Below the pieces are notes generated by a model. That model was given only the letters and a program-made list of their open reading frames with translations. It did not search any database and was not told where the DNA came from. From positions 1 through 20,083 of the IMG/VR virus record IMGVR_UViG_3300003322_000165: DNA of 20,083 bases. One strand, 5' to 3'. This DNA comes from a virus. Positions within the stretch are counted from its first letter, which is position 1. Every line of letters starts with the position of its first letter. Shown here in pieces: positions 5,367 through 15,859 of the stretch. The position numbers were made by a program, and so were the translations under genes.

Positions 5367-6080
5367 TTAGTACCTCGCGATAGCTGCGTCGAAGCTAATC
5401 ACTGCCGGCAGCGCAGAAACTGCAGCTAGCGGCTGAGCAATCAGCAAAGAATCCGCGCCGAGATACCACTGCTTTGTGAGCACGCTCTTGTCGTTCGCGT
5501 TCGCGATCAGTCCGACGTTCGGAATCGCGTTCGTATTGCCAGCATTCACAGGAACCTGCACAACGAAGCGAGGAGTCACAGCGCAGATCAGGGAGCCACT
5601 AGCGAGAGCAGCAAGCACTGCGAAAGGAGCGCCATCCACCGTGAGCGTGCTAGCAGTGACGGCGGTAACAGTAGCAGGAATGCCATCGACTGCTGCATTC
5701 TCTGCAGATCCTTGCGGTGCGAACACCATCAGGCGCATGCCAGGACGCCAGCCTTCGCGAATCCAATCGCTACTAGCAGTGTTCGCACGCACAAGCGTGC
5801 TCGCAGTCGTGTTGATCGTGCCAGTCAGCAGAGCATCTTGGTACGAAATCTTATTTCCGAACCAGATCCTAAAGTCCCTGGCAGTGCCGTCGCTGCTACT
5901 GGCAGTAAATCCGATCAGGGCAGCGCCTCCGTAACGCAACGGAGAGGGGTCAGCAGCTGCTGCGGAGGATTGCGGAAACACCACCACTTTGGCTTTCGTG
6001 CCATCCGCAGCAATGAAGCTAGCATTGCAGTACGGACGGGTGAAATCCGCAGGAGTGTTTGCATAAATGGGAGCAGTCAT
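5367..6080 (-). CDS. Putative tail/fibre structural protein
   Basis: A 237-residue protein starting at ATG 6080 in an ATGA overlap with the upstream fibre gene. It is Ala/Thr/Val-rich with many short predicted strands. It opens with MTAPIYANTPADFTRPY, carries a possible carbohydrate- or trimer-type beta region around residues 70-160 (FRIWFGNKISYQDALLTG, TVTAVTASTLTVDGAPF), and closes with VISFDAAIARY. No enzyme motif was seen. The start overlaps the fibre gene upstream and the stop is 2 bases before the Gly-rich adhesin, so the three are likely made together as parts of one fibre or base structure. The family is not recognised. Confidence 0.8.
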   Translation of the reverse strand: MTAPIYANTPADFTRPYCNASFIAADGTKAKVVVFPQSSAAAADPSPLRYGGAALIGFTASSSDGTARDFRIWFGNKISYQDALLTGTINTTASTLVRANTASSDWIREGWRPGMRLMVFAPQGSAENAAVDGIPATVTAVTASTLTVDGAPFAVLAALASGSLICAVTPRFVVQVPVNAGNTNAIPNVGLIANANDKSVLTKQWYLGADSLLIAQPLAAVSALPAVISFDAAIARY

Positions 6081-6502
6081 TTTGTGTACCCCAGATAGTT
6101 AAGAACAGAGAGTGCGGAGCCAGCGCCGAATCCCCAGCCAGCGCTAGATCCGTCACTAGTGACTTCTTTCCACTTGCCACTGGTAGCGCCAGGGAAGGGA
6201 GTACCGAGAGCAAGACCGACAAGAAACTCCGTAGTTGCGAGCTTCTTGCTAGAATCTCCAGGAGGCGGAGTAACTCCGTATGCGTAGCCGTTGAAATTAC
6301 TGGCGCCGTTGACAACGAGAGTGTCTGTAGTCAGCTGACCAGAAACGACCGGATTCGCAACCGGAAGTTTGCCGACGATACCAGCAAGCAGCACATCCCG
6401 CATGTACAGCTTGATAGTGCGGAATTCTGCTGGAGCGCTGGCGCCAGGAACTCCGTTATCTGCAGGCTGATCAACCTGAGTTGCACTTGGAGTGTACGAC
6501 AT
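6077..6502 (-). CDS. Tail-fibre-like protein (N-terminal attachment type)
   Basis: A 141-residue protein starting at ATG 6502. It has phrases common in short phage fibre proteins: TQVDQPADNG near the start, SAPAEFRTIKLYMRDVLL at about 23-40, and DSSKKLATTEFLVGLALG near 83-100. The last phrase resembles the trimerising repeats of lambda-type and Mu-type side fibres, which usually sit in much longer proteins. The C-terminus is Gly/Ser-rich and ends in LNYLGYTK. It comes straight after the adaptor gene with a 1-base gap and overlaps the next gene by 4 bases. A likely role is to connect the fibre to the tail or adaptor ring; this is inferred. The ribosome site is weak (GGGGCG), so coupling probably helps. 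Confidence 0.82.
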   Translation of the reverse strand: MSYTPSATQVDQPADNGVPGASAPAEFRTIKLYMRDVLLAGIVGKLPVANPVVSGQLTTDTLVVNGASNFNGYAYGVTPPPGDSSKKLATTEFLVGLALGTPFPGATSGKWKEVTSDGSSAGWGFGAGSALSVLNYLGYTK

Positions 6503-7774: not shown

Positions 7775-7790
7775 AGCAACTTTCGTTGCT
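7775..7790 (-). other. GAAA-tetraloop hairpin at the capsid stop codon
   Basis: On the minus strand AGCAAC-GAAA-GTTGCT is a perfect 6-bp stem closed by a GNRA tetraloop, starting on the last stages of the capsid stop codon. A compact hairpin here could stabilise the capsid message 3' end together with the terminator 12 bases further on. The structure is seen; the role is inferred. Confidence 0.55.
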
Positions 7791-9001
7791 TAGCCCACCG
7801 CACCCGCGGTAAAGTTCAGCAGCTGAACATTCGCTGCCGGATTCTTCACGAGGCAGGTCAGTTCCGTAGTGAGCGTGCCACCGACAGCGTCGATGCCATT
7901 GTCCACTGCAGGAGCACCCTGGCCATTGAACTCCGCGTTGCGAGTCTTGCGACCTTGCATGTACGCCAGACCGAAGGTAGACAGATCGATACCGATCGCC
8001 ATCTTAGCCCAGGTAGTGGCAGCGCCATAAGCATTCAGCAGCGGATGCTCGATCAGATTGAACGTGCCACGCGGAGTCTTGATCGTATCGAACTGCAGAC
8101 CCCATTCCGTGGTTTGACCCTGGATGTAGTACGTGCTGTTCAGACGGCAGATCGCATGAATCACACGACGTGCGATGCCACCCACGAAGAGCGCACGCAT
8201 GTTCGGATTCTTCGGATCCGTCACCTGATTGAACGCAGGATCCAGAGCTGCTTCCAGCTGCGTCCACGTGGTGGTAGCACCGAGCGTGGTGATGTTGCCA
8301 GCAGCAGAAGTTGCCAGGATGTTCAGCAGGCCATCCATGGTATGGATCGGCTGGCTGTTCAGCGTGTTCTGGTACTTCTGTGCGTACAGCAGACCCTTCT
8401 CGATGTCCGTCGCATGGAACACAGCGCAATCCTGGCGGGATTCAGCATCTGCGGAGCCGCCAGCGATGGTAGCAGTAGCAGCTGCAGTGCCGCTCACCAT
8501 CCACGTGTTGCGGAAGATTTGCGTGTAGTTCGTGACACGAACCGGCAGAATCAGCAGCGAAGTCGGACGCACGGATGCTTCTTCGTACGCATTGCCGATC
8601 ATCCACAAGTTCACGGAGTTGCCGATTGCAGCACCAGCGACGGTACCGAAGCTGCGACGGACGGTGATCTGCGTCGAGTTCGGAACGGTCAGCACCAGAA
8701 CGTTCTCGCCAGTAGTGTCTGCACGCAGAACCATACCAGGAAGAATATTCGTGGTAGAAACCACCGTGAACGTCGTCGTGACGCCGTCAGCAATGGCACC
8801 GTTCAGAACCACGGACGGGAAGATCATCGTCTTCGCGAAGTAGCCGTGTTCATACTGGTACGCAGTTTCCTCCTTCAGCATCGAAGTGATGCCGTACAGA
8901 GGAGCCGTACCGTTCGGCATCAGCCGAGTAATTGCAGAAGAAAAGCTCTTCTTCGCCCAGTCGGTGGTGAAAGAAGAGGTGGAAAAAGCGCCAGTAGGCA
9001 T
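7790..9001 (-). CDS. Major capsid protein (SU10-type, DUF5309)
   Basis: A 403-residue protein starting at ATG 9001, with TGGAG 6 bases upstream. The sequence has features of the DUF5309 / SU10 major head protein family: an early LMPNGTAPLYGITSMLKEE region, a beta insert (VVLNGAIADGVTTTFTVVST, TQITVRRSFGTVAG), the motif VRVTNYTQIFRNTWMVSGTA, a long central helix (IEKGLLYAQKYQNTLN), and late strands with FNLIEHPLLNA. These proteins have the HK97 fold and build the icosahedral shell. It lies directly after the scaffold gene and before the terminator, the usual place. Length fits the family. There is no N-terminal protease or delta-domain fusion, consistent with a separate scaffold. Confidence 0.92.
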   Translation of the reverse strand: MPTGAFSTSSFTTDWAKKSFSSAITRLMPNGTAPLYGITSMLKEETAYQYEHGYFAKTMIFPSVVLNGAIADGVTTTFTVVSTTNILPGMVLRADTTGENVLVLTVPNSTQITVRRSFGTVAGAAIGNSVNLWMIGNAYEEASVRPTSLLILPVRVTNYTQIFRNTWMVSGTAAATATIAGGSADAESRQDCAVFHATDIEKGLLYAQKYQNTLNSQPIHTMDGLLNILATSAAGNITTLGATTTWTQLEAALDPAFNQVTDPKNPNMRALFVGGIARRVIHAICRLNSTYYIQGQTTEWGLQFDTIKTPRGTFNLIEHPLLNAYGAATTWAKMAIGIDLSTFGLAYMQGRKTRNAEFNGQGAPAVDNGIDAVGGTLTTELTCLVKNPAANVQLLNFTAGAVG

Positions 9002-9029: not shown

Positions 9030-9815
9030 TCATTGAGCAGGAACTCCGAGAAGCGCACCCCAGTCAGGTTCTTGTTGCTGCTGCGGTTGTCCGTTCTGGC
9101 CTTGATTGCCATTCTGGCTAGTGCCAGCGATAGCTTGACCGAAACCAGTCAGATATTGTTCAGCACGCTGATTGATTTGGGCAGGAGTAAGATCAGGGTT
9201 GTTAGCCTTGATTTGTGCTCGTGCCAATTGCAGCAGAGGCTGCGCAGCAGGGTGAGCGAGAGCGGGGTTTTCCGGTGCCATCTGGCTGAGTTGAATGCTA
9301 TTCACGTGATTCGGAAGAGCTTCCATGATACGGGAGTTGTTAGCTCTCGTAGCATTCTCAACCATACCGGTAGAGAGTTGAGCAGCAGTCACGAGGGAAC
9401 GCTGTCCCACATGATTCAGAACTTGCAAGAAAGCTTGCGGGTCTTGTCCCGACATTGCTTTCTGCATCAGTTCTGGAGCGATGCCAGCCGTGAAATCAAT
9501 CTTGGCTGCAGCTGCTTGGAGTTTGGCAGGGTCGCTGTTGAGCAGCGGAGTTGCAAACGGATCGGCTTGCGGTGCCGGAGCGTTTGGAGGAGCTTGCCAG
9601 ATGTTTTGCAGCGTGTCCATCGGGTTAGGTTCTGCAGCAGGTGCAGCAACCGGAGCAGCCGGAGGCACAGCTCCAGGATTCTGTTGCGCAAGCGGAGCTG
9701 GTGCGGGCTGCGGTGCTTGCTGAATCGTTTGTTGCGGCGCGCCGGGAGCAGCTGCGACTTGCGTGCCGCCGTTGTTACCACCGAACATGTTCTTGATAGG
9801 TGCGAAGATATCCAT
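9030..9815 (-). CDS. Capsid scaffolding protein
   Basis: A 261-residue protein starting at ATG 9815 with GGAG about 9 bases upstream. Residues 19-90 are very rich in Pro, Ala and Gln (APQQTIQQAPQPAPAPLAQQ is typical). Residues 95-235 are Ala/Gln/Leu/Asn helices (PELMQKAMSGQDPQAFLQV). The C-terminus is Gln/Gly-rich and ends in DWGALLGVPAQ. Scaffolds guide capsid shell assembly and are removed later; they are usually helical, low in complexity, and encoded between portal and major capsid, as here. Composition and location agree, but there is no diagnostic motif and no visible protease domain. Confidence 0.85.
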   Translation of the reverse strand: MDIFAPIKNMFGGNNGGTQVAAAPGAPQQTIQQAPQPAPAPLAQQNPGAVPPAAPVAAPAAEPNPMDTLQNIWQAPPNAPAPQADPFATPLLNSDPAKLQAAAAKIDFTAGIAPELMQKAMSGQDPQAFLQVLNHVGQRSLVTAAQLSTGMVENATRANNSRIMEALPNHVNSIQLSQMAPENPALAHPAAQPLLQLARAQIKANNPDLTPAQINQRAEQYLTGFGQAIAGTSQNGNQGQNGQPQQQQEPDWGALLGVPAQ

Positions 9816-12009: not shown

Positions 12010-13494
12010 TTAAAATGCTGGTTGAAGATCTTCCGCGAATGCTGCAGTTGCAGACGACTCCGGAATTTCGTAGACGCGCATGAGCTGATATTTGTACTTC
12101 TCGATCACTTGGAACGCATACGTCGGTAGATCAAGAATGTCGTCTTTGTTATCATTCCGCATCGCATCGAAGTGCATCGCCTGATGCAACAGACGAGACT
12201 TCACACGCGGATGCACTAGAATCTTCTTATCCGGCGCTGTGATCTGCTTGAGCATCGCGTTGATGCGAGCATTCTTTGTGCCGCCAACTGGGTAGATCTC
12301 AAGCGGGATGAAACCTTTGATTCCTCGCTGCATCGCAATGTAATTGAACCAGAAGGCCAGAGTCGCTTGATACGCCACGCTCTCGATGACGATAGCACGA
12401 AGACCGAGCCGCATCCCCATTTCCATCGCAGTTGTAATGCATTGGAGCGGATTGAATTTCCCAACTTCGAGATCCCAAAAAATCGGGACAGCGTCGTAGA
12501 GGAGGAACGCTCCGATTGCGACATCGTCTGATTTTTTCTTGCCCACGCTAGGATCGATGATGATCCAGCCAGCCTCAGATTCAATTGCGTCGTGTCGGTG
12601 ATCGGAGTAATTGATCGCCGAAAGATCGACGCCCACACGGGCTCCAGCTTCCTCGTCATTCATCACCTCGCTGTAGAAGATTTCCGGATGCCCCATGCTC
12701 ATGTCATCTTGCAGCTCATCTAGGATGCTATCGACACTCCGCAGCTCCGGCCAGATGGATTCGCCGTCAGCAAGGATCGCACCGGTGATGAAAGAGAACC
12801 AAGCTGGATTGTGCTTCAGCTTCTTAAGAATGCTGCCTTCAAACGGGTACATGTTCCCGATGAACGCGTAAAGGCAACGCTTCTTATTGTTCGCTTTCAT
12901 CAACGTAGCGAGCATCCACACGAGACCTTTCGTGCTTTCTGTCGTGCTCTGAGCTTCCTCTCGACTTTGCATGTCATCCATCAGCATCACATCCGGACGA
13001 ACGTATTTAATATTCAGGCCGCGCAAGCTACCGAGATTTCCGAGTCCTGCTAGCGTGACTGGCCTGCCAGCAAAGAAGAACTTCTGCAGATCTTGACGTT
13101 CCGTTTCAGCGCGGCTTTGATAATTCCCATACAGACGGATGAAGTTCTCGCTCCGAAGAATATCCATCACGTCGGTAACGAAGTTCACGGCAAGCGGGAA
13201 CGTGTTGCAGATGATGAGAATGAATCGACGGTTGCTATAGACAATCAACCAGGCTACTAGCAGCTTCAGAACGATTGTCTTCCCGAATCCGCGCGGCAGA
13301 CCGAGAGCGATCTTGTCCAATCCTTCTCCTTTAAGCGCGGCTTCACAGAGAATCTGCCAGTACGCTTTGAAGATCGGAGGAAACGGAAACTCATAAACAT
13401 CCGGCAAGCAGATCATTGCGAAAGTGTCTAGGTCCCATTTCGCGGCATCAATGATCTCCTGCCGATTCGTCTTTGCGACAAAGATTTCGTTCAT
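12010..13494 (-). CDS. terL: Terminase large subunit (packaging ATPase-nuclease)
   Basis: A 494-residue protein starting at ATG 13494, in an ATGA overlap with the hydrolase gene. The ATPase half has a Walker A at 65-73 (GLPRGFGKT) and a Walker B at about 169-174 (VMLMDD). The nuclease half has the acidic set expected for the RNase-H fold: D314 in IIIDPSVGKK, D323-D324, E371 in VIESVAYQ, and D451-D452/D455 in NKDDILDLP. It powers DNA entry through the portal and cuts the concatemer. The ribosome site is weak, so its translation is probably coupled to the upstream gene. All key residues appear present. Confidence 0.95.
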   Translation of the reverse strand: MNEIFVAKTNRQEIIDAAKWDLDTFAMICLPDVYEFPFPPIFKAYWQILCEAALKGEGLDKIALGLPRGFGKTIVLKLLVAWLIVYSNRRFILIICNTFPLAVNFVTDVMDILRSENFIRLYGNYQSRAETERQDLQKFFFAGRPVTLAGLGNLGSLRGLNIKYVRPDVMLMDDMQSREEAQSTTESTKGLVWMLATLMKANNKKRCLYAFIGNMYPFEGSILKKLKHNPAWFSFITGAILADGESIWPELRSVDSILDELQDDMSMGHPEIFYSEVMNDEEAGARVGVDLSAINYSDHRHDAIESEAGWIIIDPSVGKKKSDDVAIGAFLLYDAVPIFWDLEVGKFNPLQCITTAMEMGMRLGLRAIVIESVAYQATLAFWFNYIAMQRGIKGFIPLEIYPVGGTKNARINAMLKQITAPDKKILVHPRVKSRLLHQAMHFDAMRNDNKDDILDLPTYAFQVIEKYKYQLMRVYEIPESSATAAFAEDLQPAF

Positions 13495-14651
13495 ACCAGG
13501 TACTGTGTACCGTTAATGATGCAAGCCAGCCCGTCACTCGTACCGACTTGATTGATTCGAGTGACAGTTGCACCGTTCAGCATTGCTGCGATGCTTCTAA
13601 TATACGCAGCTCGTTCATCTGTAGAACTCCATCCCAGCGGATACAGAGTTGCACGCTGCATGCCGATAGCAACATTCCAAAGGAAGAATCGCAACAGCGC
13701 TTTTGCACGATTAGCTTCTGTGCCTGTATATAGGCTGAAATCCGGATTGATGTATCCGAACTCAGTAGACCAGACAGGCATTGCTGCGATGCCGTTGTTT
13801 GCTTTCAGCGTCGTCACGTAGCCTTTGGTGACGTACATATTCGACAGCTTGTTCAAGCCGCTGTGTTCGTACGTGTGCAAGCTGATAGCATCAATCCACA
13901 GCTTTCCTGTCCCTGCTGCGCCATCGCTAGCTTTTAGGAATTGATCCGTGTAATCGATACCGAAACCAGCGGTGTTGTTATTCACGCCAGTGCATGCGAC
14001 ACCGAGAATCTTCACGCTTGGCTTGATTGCTTTCGCAGCCAGATTGATTGTACGCGCCATCTCCGCCAGCTTCGCAGGAGTGCCAGTGTAATATGTATTA
14101 CCGGCTGTCTGGGGCTCGTTCCAAACTTCGATATAATCGATATAGTCTCCACAAGTCAACATCAGCTGAGTAACGAATGTGCTGAGATACGCCATGTTTG
14201 CAGGCTCAGCCATACCACCTACGTCTGATGGGTAGACAGTATTTACTTCAGCTGGTCTAGCAGATGCCCAGGTTGGCGTGCTAAAAAGCGTCACTACCGT
14301 TTGAGAACCTACTGATTTGCAAGTGCGCAGCCAGTTTAGTATGCCGTCGAATCGGTACACGCCGTTTGCAGGATTCATCTGCGACCAGCGAGGTGCCATG
14401 TCATGGCTTCGATTCCAGCAACCTGCATAGCTAGCAGCAGATGCTTGAGGCACGTGCATGCCTACGAAATTCGAATCCAGAACTACGGGACCTTCCAGCA
14501 GATTCGTTCCCAGCGCAGCAGGAATTGCATTGATAAAAAGATCGCTCTGCTCGTAGCAGTCGAAGTTCGTACCATTCTGCTGAGCTAGAATGAACGGAGG
14601 ATAGTCGCTGCTGCGAGCATTCGCCGGAGTTGTCATCGGACGAGAGTACAT
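13491..14651 (-). CDS. Clan-A glycoside hydrolase (GH39/GH5-like), putative virion depolymerase
   Basis: A 386-residue protein starting at ATG 14651, with AAGGAG 8 bases upstream. The body is a TIM-barrel hydrolase: a substrate-loop region (PRWSQMNPANGVYRFDGILN), the strand TVVTLFSTPTWAS, the acid/base motif YIEVWNEPQ with E179, SLHTY with H259, and the nucleophile motif VWSTEFGY with E297. The 118-residue gap between the two glutamates and the WNEP motif fit retaining clan-A enzymes. There is no signal peptide, so it would leave the cell in the virion or by lysis. It probably cleaves a host surface polysaccharide; the substrate cannot be told. Its place between the two terminase genes is unusual. 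No separate fibre-attachment domain was recognised. Confidence 0.85.
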   Translation of the reverse strand: MYSRPMTTPANARSSDYPPFILAQQNGTNFDCYEQSDLFINAIPAALGTNLLEGPVVLDSNFVGMHVPQASAASYAGCWNRSHDMAPRWSQMNPANGVYRFDGILNWLRTCKSVGSQTVVTLFSTPTWASARPAEVNTVYPSDVGGMAEPANMAYLSTFVTQLMLTCGDYIDYIEVWNEPQTAGNTYYTGTPAKLAEMARTINLAAKAIKPSVKILGVACTGVNNNTAGFGIDYTDQFLKASDGAAGTGKLWIDAISLHTYEHSGLNKLSNMYVTKGYVTTLKANNGIAAMPVWSTEFGYINPDFSLYTGTEANRAKALLRFFLWNVAIGMQRATLYPLGWSSTDERAAYIRSIAAMLNGATVTRINQVGTSDGLACIINGTQYLV

Positions 14652-14663
14652 CGCAACAGCTCC

Positions 14664-15281
14664 TTACTGTTTCACCGAGATGGCAACAGCTCGCAGACGG
14701 TAGCTGTTCTGCGGAGCGCCAGCTGCAACTGCGCTGTTCCAGCCGACGTAGATGTTGAAATCCAGAGAGGTATCAACCGCTAGAGTCTGCGTTGCAGCAG
14801 CGTTGCTGGTGTACGGTTGCGCTTGCGCTGCCGGCTGTGCTTTCTGCGCGGTCGTGCTGTTATCATTCCAGATCACAGCTCCGTTACCGACGTGCTTTTG
14901 CGTAGTCAAGCCAGATTGCCCGCCGATTGCAGTAGCAGTCGCAAACGTGCCGCTAGCTGGGCCAATGCGGATTTCAATGTTCTTCGTGTCATTCCCAGTC
15001 ATTTCTGCAAACGCTTCGACCAGCAACATTGCAGTCTTCGTCAGCAGGCCGCCAGGGATCGTTGTGAACCAGACTTGCTGCATTGCAGTTGTGGTATCCG
15101 TAACCAACGCGTTAGGAACGCTTTGATGCAGAATCGCACTTACGCCTTGCGGCGAGGCACCGTTCGCTTGCATTCTTCCTGTCGTAGGATTCACCCAAGC
15201 AAGACTGGATTCGTTCACAGGAATGTCCATGACATTGCCGTTAGCGAAAGTCAAGCGAACGCGAGCATTGGTAAGATCCAT
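14664..15281 (-). CDS. Beta-rich virion-like protein upstream of the hydrolase
   Basis: A 205-residue protein starting at ATG 15281, with AAAGGA 8 bases upstream. It begins MDLTNARVRLTFANGNVMDI, then has a mid-region of alternating strands (MQQVWFTTIPGGLLTKTAML, KNIEIRIGPASGTFATATAI) and a late beta stretch (LDFNIYVGWNSAVAAG) ending in VAISVKQ. This resembles jelly-roll or sandwich domains of phage appendage proteins. Its stop is 12 bases before the hydrolase start, and the hydrolase ribosome site overlaps its end, so the two are likely co-made and may act together, for example as a carrier or attachment piece for the enzyme. The family is not recognised. Confidence 0.75.
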   Translation of the reverse strand: MDLTNARVRLTFANGNVMDIPVNESSLAWVNPTTGRMQANGASPQGVSAILHQSVPNALVTDTTTAMQQVWFTTIPGGLLTKTAMLLVEAFAEMTGNDTKNIEIRIGPASGTFATATAIGGQSGLTTQKHVGNGAVIWNDNSTTAQKAQPAAQAQPYTSNAAATQTLAVDTSLDFNIYVGWNSAVAAGAPQNSYRLRAVAISVKQ

Positions 15282-15319: not shown

Positions 15320-15859
15320 TCACAGATTATTCGCTAGTGTCAGTTTCATTGGTGCAGCCACATCCAGGATCTGCTCTGTTTTCCGCGCTTCCAAGCGCTG
15401 AGCTAGCGTCTTCGCTGGCATCGTAACCATGCTGCGGCCTTCCACATCGATAACTTGCTTGTCGCTACTGAGCTCGATTGCGACGTGCAATTTTGTTGCT
15501 GCCTTCGGAAGCACGAGAGTGACAACATCTCCGGATTCCTGATTCTGACTGGCAGCGCCTTCGCTAGCGCGGCGATGAGCTGCGTTCAGAACACTGAACA
15601 CTCTGGCTGCTTCCACGGGTTTCGTAATCATTGGAATCAGAGCCTTCACACGCTTTAGAGCTGCACTCTCTGCATCTTCCAGAGTTTCATCTGCTTCAAT
15701 GAATTTAGCTGTCTTCGCAGCTCGCCCTGCTGCCACTGCAGAAGCAAACTCTTCCTCTGCCATCAGCTGGCTGACGTAACTGTCATCGCAGCCAACTGCT
15801 GCGGCTGCTTGCGTCTGAGAGAGTCCGTTGCTGAGAAGCTTTTGAATCTGTTCTTTCAC
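15320..15859 (-). CDS. Terminase small subunit candidate (HTH protein)
   Basis: A 179-residue protein starting at GTG 15859, with a very strong AAGGAGG 5 bases upstream. Residues 12-34 (GLSQTQAAAAVGCDDSYVSQ) form a helix-turn-helix. A long helical region follows (AESAALKRVKALIPMITKP, EAARVFSVLNAAHRRASEG), and the C-terminal part is beta/polar. DNA-binding HTH plus a central oligomerising helix and a C-terminal tail is the layout of small terminases, which recognise the packaging site and pass the DNA to the large subunit. It is the first gene of the late block. A transcription regulator is an alternative, but the length and position fit terminase better. Confidence 0.7.
   Translation of the reverse strand: MKEQIQKLLSNGLSQTQAAAAVGCDDSYVSQLMAEEEFASAVAAGRAAKTAKFIEADETLEDAESAALKRVKALIPMITKPVEAARVFSVLNAAHRRASEGAASQNQESGDVVTLVLPKAATKLHVAIELSSDKQVIDVEGRSMVTMPAKTLAQRLEARKTEQILDVAAPMKLTLANNL

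Follow-up and report, generated by a model that had tools for sequence, protein, structure and literature searches.

According to a review, the depolymerases characterised from phages belong to tail fibres or tailspikes, a pre-neck appendage being an exception (PMC5380687). In the tailspike system of Escherichia coli phage K1-5, gp37 is described as an adaptor for a separately encoded, exchangeable polysaccharide-degrading enzyme (PMC6966330). The capsid turrets of HFTV1 bear a deacetylase-like domain, a capsid-borne carbohydrate-active domain which is proposed to modify the host glycan layer (PMC12494034). PslG of Pseudomonas aeruginosa (PDB 4zn2, 5bx9, 9g17) is a GH39-type endoglycosidase of the Psl exopolysaccharide locus, and since it can disperse biofilms (PMC7237758), enzymes with a PslG-like fold are of practical interest. 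Glycosidases of soil viruses have been interpreted as carbon-cycle genes (PMC6786970). Here we analyse a PslG-like enzyme gene (13491-14651) and its partner gene in the virus record IMGVR_UViG_3300003322_000165, the whole stretch of 20,083 bases being referred to as the window. Other loci and genomes carry our own L and G numbers.

The window enzyme has the same fold and catalytic motifs as PslG, at an identity of 13-15% only. It differs from PslG in lacking a signal peptide, in an N-terminal extension of approximately 50 residues which is common to its phage relatives, and in being encoded in a phage head operon with an adaptor gene adjoining. As in the K1-5 gp37 system, an adaptor is combined with a separately encoded, exchangeable enzyme, but here packaging and head genes flank the cassette, and its enzyme in the window is a TIM-barrel glycosidase of the PslG type. 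HFTV1 is an archaeal virus with another enzyme class, and no exchangeable two-gene slot appears in the part of its description seen. Gp072 of Caulobacter phage Cr30, annotated as 'beta-1,4 xylanase', is a distant homologue and is likewise preceded by an open reading frame (ORF) of the same direction; unlike in the window, this neighbour is not detectably adaptor-related, and none of the genes annotated within 10 kb is a head gene. Swapping of an adaptor plus depolymerase is already known for tailspikes; the version with separate genes in head operons and a PslG-like enzyme is new. No description of a head-operon cassette of this kind came up in our search of the open-access literature, although this does not prove that none exists.

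With moderate confidence we read the gene product as an endoglycosidase of the GH39/PslG kind which forms one half of a two-gene exopolysaccharide-depolymerase cassette, its catalysis, virion attachment, site and substrate being predicted. The cassette is conserved and its payload is exchanged. It is probably an exchangeable, virion-borne exopolysaccharide depolymerase module rather than a nutrition gene. The putative beta-sandwich adaptor (14664-15281) would dock the enzyme onto the particle, and the adaptor-enzyme pair would be a plug-in, inserted at differing places in unrelated head operons. The particle would carry the enzyme outside the cell, where it would cut host exopolysaccharide or biofilm and thus let the phage reach the cell surface. 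Absence of an export signal, an adjoining adaptor and exchange with lyases and beta-helix proteins are expected of a particle-borne depolymerase. The interpretation given in the earlier note on this DNA is supported in part; it missed the partner of the enzyme, the recurrence of the cassette in further phages and the enzyme exchange in Nitrosospira prophages.

The exchange is seen in prophages of Nitrosospira, a genus of ammonia-oxidising autotrophs. Cassette-type enzymes (E-value 1e-130 or better) occur in five of 125 genomes of the family of G001 (G001, G002, G111, G117, G121). The gene order in these five, named by position and appearance, is terminase large subunit (TerL), portal, adaptor of 193-201 amino acids, enzyme, scaffold and capsid. 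A wider search for cassette-type enzymes at E <= 1e-60 returned G001 alone among 399 genomes of the order, and again alone among 398 of the phylum. The Nitrosospira prophage portal, at an identity of at least 76%, is present in 23 genomes as 26 copies; G041 and G059 (portal 43-44%) and G035 (matched at E 6e-4 only) were left out. The slot behind the portal is empty in three of the 26 copies (199, 422 and 194 bases) and holds at least one adaptor in 23. Tandem double adaptor-payload units with different payload types are found in G105 (L227), G106 (L225) and one G110 copy (L234). For G105, G106, G114 and G115 the scaffold gene lies beyond the stretch examined, and an extra first unit of G115, three ORFs without a recognised adaptor, is not counted among the pairs.

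BLAST divides the payloads of the 26 adaptor-payload pairs into beta-helix (12), GH39-like (5) and TIM-like (4) proteins and three small clusters of 3, 1 and 1. One member in each of these three clusters matches the polysaccharide lyase family PF14099 (2.8e-17, 1.3e-12 and 1.5e-12), as does a further G115 protein (1.7e-21). In the largest cluster, the beta-helix family PF13229 was matched by one of two proteins tested; two TIM-like payloads each gave a sub-threshold match to Glyco_hydro_42 (0.011 and 0.095). On the portal tree the five payload states need nine changes, the minimum possible being four, and starred branches force at least three changes of the GH39 state. All of 200 shuffles of the payload states lay above the observed nine (mean 13.8), indicating that payloads are clustered as well as exchanged. 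A conserved adaptor and swapped enzymes at one locus, the hallmarks of an adaptor-plus-exchangeable-depolymerase system, are thus present in the Nitrosospira prophages; the window is linked to this system by homology of both genes only.

The adaptors change with their payloads. At E <= 1e-3, the C-terminal parts match in 85/85 pairs of adaptors with the same payload and in 76/240 pairs with different payloads, the N-terminal parts in 75/85 and 151/240, respectively. From these sequences we infer that the Nitrosospira adaptors may combine a common N-terminal anchor with a payload-specific dock. A soluble depolymerase, expressed late along with the packaging genes, released by lysis and loosening the matrix around neighbouring cells without being part of the virion, appears unlikely, as it leaves unexplained both this tracking of payload type by adaptor type and why, in the window as in L009 and the Nitrosospira prophages, a partner gene immediately precedes that of the enzyme. 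In its favour, release by lysis requires no signal peptide, and no anchor can be recognised in the enzyme itself, whose first 50 residues are modelled at low confidence.

Exchange also bears on the proposal that the gene is an auxiliary metabolic gene or moron whose enzyme would nourish the infected cell or the lysogen by degrading polysaccharides of plants or microbes. Published studies take this view of glycosidases from soil viruses (PMC6786970, PMC9485262). Signal-peptide-like starts in the enzymes of L010 and L011, which belong to other phages, agree with such a role. In the Nitrosospira slot, however, the enzymes are swapped with beta-helix and lyase-type proteins, the head-operon members have no signal peptide, the genomic context counts against feeding, and autotrophic hosts fit polymer feeding poorly. 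We consider this proposal improbable.

The exopolysaccharide-depolymerase cassette, if correctly read, means that phages swap matrix-cutting enzymes at a fixed head-operon slot, beyond tail fibres, and it shows annotators where new depolymerases may be sought. It would also help to decide whether viral glycosidases in metagenomes are nutrition genes or entry tools; the Nitrosospira prophages supply hosts known by name and naturally varying payloads for such a comparison. What is chiefly gained is the cassette together with its exchange, through which the idea can be tested in bacteria known by name.

Outside Nitrosospira, the closest counterpart of the window cassette is found in L009. There, a 188-amino-acid ORF before the enzyme is 41% identical to ORF205, the partner gene of the window, over 170 residues, and the enzymes are 47% identical over their full length; adaptor and enzyme stand in the same order in both loci. 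In their N-terminal parts the two adaptors are unlike each other; what remains associated with the enzyme is the C-terminal 170 residues. In L009 the cassette follows a portal-like ORF and a downstream capsid-like ORF, both recognised by eye and both without a Pfam match. BLASTP among the portals and capsids of the window, L009 and the Nitrosospira prophages found no similarity at E <= 0.1, in contrast to the enzymes of these three, which match at 1e-41 to 1e-129. ORF205 gave no useful match in Pfam or PHROGs and no match among phage records, a viral scan with ORF205 alone found none, and the Nitrosospira adaptor likewise had no match among phage records. A genome scan with the close pair gave 19 pattern matches, none of which was confirmed. 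The partner ORFs of L001, L008 and L012 have no profile similarity to the adaptors, and a related adaptor for every phage glycoside hydrolase of this enzyme family was therefore rejected.

The window adaptor is probably homologous to the Nitrosospira adaptors. Among 93 sequences of the first set, the profile of the Nitrosospira type A adaptor matched a single ORF, L059 8276-9025 (5.1e-28), which lies directly behind the portal gene of a TerL relative of the window; between this ORF and position 9627 no ORF of at least 110 amino acids is present on the same strand. Using hhalign, ORF205 and its L009 counterpart align over 119 columns with the adaptor family when L059 and both adaptor types are included (probability 78%, E 1.9e-5). 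Against a smaller set with L059 the score was 34.4 (probability 53%), the maximum of 100 column shuffles being 22.3. The pattern of the sequences suggests that the adaptors are beta-sandwich proteins.

In the window, the head genes are on the minus strand. The relevant features are:

15320-15859, minus strand: TerS (terminase small subunit), one border of the insertion; weak terminase PHROG match (6.9e-5), 49% identity to the ORF at the same place in L002
14664-15281, minus strand: ORF205, putative beta-sandwich adaptor, 205 amino acids; counterpart in L009 and profile match to the Nitrosospira adaptors
14660-14664, minus strand: AGGAG, which meets the stop of ORF205 and likely serves the enzyme gene as ribosome-binding site; read from the sequence
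13491-14651, minus strand: GH39/PslG-like clan-A glycoside hydrolase, 386 amino acids, ATG start
14115-14117, minus strand: codon of E179, predicted acid/base in the WNE motif after strand 4; invariant in 43 sequences, aligned with WNEP of PslG and GH39 xylosidases
13875-13877, minus strand: codon of H259, active-site histidine on strand 6 (255-259); invariant in 43 sequences
13761-13763, minus strand: codon of E297, predicted nucleophile on strand 7 (293-298); invariant in 43 sequences, aligned with the E of WSTEWGW in PslG
12010-13494, minus strand: TerL, the other border of the insertion; PHROG 38 (E 3.2e-46), 59% identity in L002
10067-12007, minus strand: portal protein, SU10 type; PF23899 (2.7e-9), PHROG 15554 (2.8e-62)
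7790-9001, minus strand: major capsid protein, SU10 type; PF17236 (5.6e-38)

The observation of a glycosidase ORF in the terminase region, made in the earlier note, is confirmed. Its coordinates are correct and the strand is minus, the plus reading containing stops and the minus reading a single ORF of 386 amino acids. The enzyme gene was described as lying between the two terminase genes; it is inside the TerS-TerL gap, though not directly between them, as ORF205 stands between TerS and the enzyme. The overlap with TerL also holds, comprising four bases, ATGA, a pattern of translationally linked genes. Twelve bases separate the ORF205 stop from the start of the enzyme ORF, and AGGAG is found eight bases ahead of its ATG.

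By itself, the window enzyme has no meaningful match in Pfam and PHROGs (one unrelated sub-threshold Pfam match) and a weak one to the glucosidase 5z3k among solved structures (E 0.29). Besides L009, its relatives include Nitrosospira prophages (L093 34%, L094 30% identity) and, at 22-26% identity, the remote L001, L012, L010 and L011; Cr30 is at 22-27%. A seven-sequence profile matched GH39 xylosidases (2.6e-17) and PslG (5.8e-15). For fold analysis, 43 sequences were aligned, drawn from the phage loci and from the best 80 of 195 relatives; this profile matches PslG with an E-value of 3.3e-34 across positions 17-385, nearly the whole length, and also matches GH39 xylosidases. With these 43 sequences AlphaFold gave a model with eight barrel strands (predicted local distance difference test (pLDDT) 86, predicted template modelling score (pTM) 0.87; pLDDT 38 from the single sequence). 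PslG occupies ranks 1-3 in Foldseek (E 1.3e-13 to 3.4e-13). By VIA-align, 5z3k reaches a Z score of 25.4 and PslG 24.0, and ranks 1-13 consist of 5z3k, PslG and GH39 xylosidase-type entries (Z 20.9-25.4). The full-length L009 relative, the quality of the model and PslG/GH39 as best solved-structure matches place the enzyme observation beyond chance.

The columns invariant in 43/43 sequences are R81, W89, I171, E175, W177, N178, E179, H259, Y261 and E297, and no others; the motifs with E179, H259 and E297 named beforehand are thus real. In the model, strand 4 (173-175) ends just before E179 and E297 lies on strand 7, as in the clan-A arrangement. The (beta/alpha)8 barrel, with the predicted acid/base glutamate after strand 4 and the predicted nucleophile glutamate at strand 7, and the clan-A enzymes as best fold matches bear out the clan-A TIM barrel proposed earlier. 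A trimeric beta-helix tailspike depolymerase was ruled out as the class of the window enzyme by the modelled TIM barrel. Of the GH5, GH39 and GH30 folds suggested for comparison, GH39/PslG came out on top, with GH5 and GH30 ranking below, and the substrate family, which had been called unknown, is replaced by an assignment as GH39/PslG-like. We use this label rather than GH39 member because, although the closest solved structures are GH39 enzymes, the window protein falls short of the curated Pfam cut-off of GH39 (PF01229), which the Cr30 relative passes (1e-10). On the model, 13491-14651 encodes a GH39/PslG-type clan-A glycosidase, for which a retaining mechanism is expected and catalysis is predicted. 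An inactive barrel serving as a carbohydrate-binding protein would agree with a chain that stops soon after the barrel, earlier than in PslG (386 versus 412-414 amino acids, despite the longer N-terminal extension here), but it is highly improbable given that no sequence of the alignment has lost either catalytic glutamate, the active-site histidine or the WNE motif.

The absence of a signal peptide, also stated earlier, was borne out. The highest mean hydropathy of 12 residues within the first 45 of the window enzyme is 0.32, as compared to at least 1.9 within the first 60 residues in 63 of 78 chromosomal relatives. None of seven head-operon enzymes checked has a signal-peptide-like start. 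The chromosomal relatives in Nitrosospira do have such starts, are flanked by glycosyltransferase-like genes and, like pslG in its locus, lie in apparent exopolysaccharide clusters, with GDP-mannose-dehydratase-like neighbours (names by eye). Examples are the PslG-like genes L194 9136-10245 and L195 9923-11212, each located ahead of a glycosyltransferase-like gene in such an apparent cluster.

In a tree of 54 sequences, six head-operon enzymes and L001 share one side of a branch (94/99). Nine chromosomal Nitrosospira copies fall apart from the prophage enzymes, which group with the window, L009 and L001. Constraining the six head-operon enzymes to one clade was not rejected (approximately unbiased test, p 0.38); L001 sits on a long branch. 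A recent origin by capture from the host chromosome was rejected, since the prophage enzymes group with those of phages away from the chromosomal copies; this grouping looks like an old phage lineage.

The unusual gene position claimed in the earlier note is reflected in the TerS-TerL gap of the window's own group. The gap is at most 273 bases in 71 of 77 distinct loci and exceeds 480 bases in six (window, L002, L016, L020, L065, L006), the window insertion being the largest. These 77 were obtained from 78 rows after removal of L003, a copy of the window; they are not dereplicated and include near-copies, and eight more TerL loci without TerS in the stretch examined are outside the count. Of 398 confirmed loci, the best 80 were kept. 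The cargo is a 151-amino-acid ORF in L002, a DUF6772 protein (3.1e-6) and a 152-amino-acid ORF in L016, a metallopeptidase-like protein in L006 (694-1701; DUF6782 at 4.6e-4, under the cut-off) and, by eye, a DNA-methyltransferase-like protein in L065 (1168-1839). Because L065, L020 and L006 carry other cargo, a gap reserved for sugar enzymes was rejected. A profile of the 43-row enzyme alignment found no member in 12 contigs of TerL relatives, in a search that had no positive control; in a separate search the profile of the same alignment does recover the window and L009. The DUF6772 protein of L016 (786-1616), a close relative of the window, at the TerS-TerL site hints at a particle or host-surface role of this family.

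Where on the particle the enzyme would sit is a separate question. The cassette may be an ordinary tailspike encoded in the head operon, with nothing mounted on the head. This variant of the depolymerase-cassette reading, with which it overlaps in confidence, has a real though less than even chance. It accords with the adaptor of K1-5 and with the fibre or spike location of characterised depolymerases described above, and beta-helix payloads resemble tailspike domains; it sits less well with another window gene (6077-6502) which has a weak tail-fibre match (PHROG 4209, E 0.0017), and with the adaptor-family member directly behind the portal gene in L059. More tentatively still, several unrelated phage lineages may have an exchangeable head- or portal-mounted slot, in which a beta-sandwich adaptor displays a PslG-like, beta-helix or lyase enzyme on capsid or neck. 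The matrix-cutting power of the particle would then be separate from the receptor-binding proteins of the tail, and some viral 'carbon-cycling' glycosidases of metagenome studies would be particle-borne depolymerases.

Several points weigh against a particle-borne, exchangeable cassette in the window. The position of a gene in the head operon does not prove a location on the head of the particle. The cargo in the TerS-TerL slot of L065, L006 and L020 is unlike depolymerases, and the distant phage enzymes of L010 and L011 have signal-peptide-like starts, indicating that other phage members of the enzyme family are probably secreted. A first hhalign comparison of two adaptor sequences showed no similarity, which did not emerge until further sequences and the bridging L059 ORF were added, and a search with the anchor-like N-terminal part of the Nitrosospira adaptors (about 48 residues) did not match ORF205. 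Adaptor homology is rated probable, not proven, because the comparison is negative or weak without bridging sequences.

The PslG-like enzymes of L010 (5821-7824) and L011 (5821-7791) are encoded between TerL-like and portal-like ORFs, probably a secreted version at another head-operon site, and the TerL ORFs of these two carriers look unlike each other. The portal-like ORF of L010 (8811-11696) comprises 961 amino acids, that of its relative L011 (8781-10505) 574; the extra stretch in L010 opens with a CFSPDTEVLTRDGWK-like sequence and looks intein-like by eye. The window terminase is 32-37% identical to those of Aeromonas phage P5, Polaromonas phage Tiera, EBPR podovirus 3 and PaMx41-like Pseudomonas phages. 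At one end of the window, an open frame of 691 codons on the plus strand (2-2077) lies antisense to a minus-strand ORF of 705 codons and is probably a by-product of codon use.

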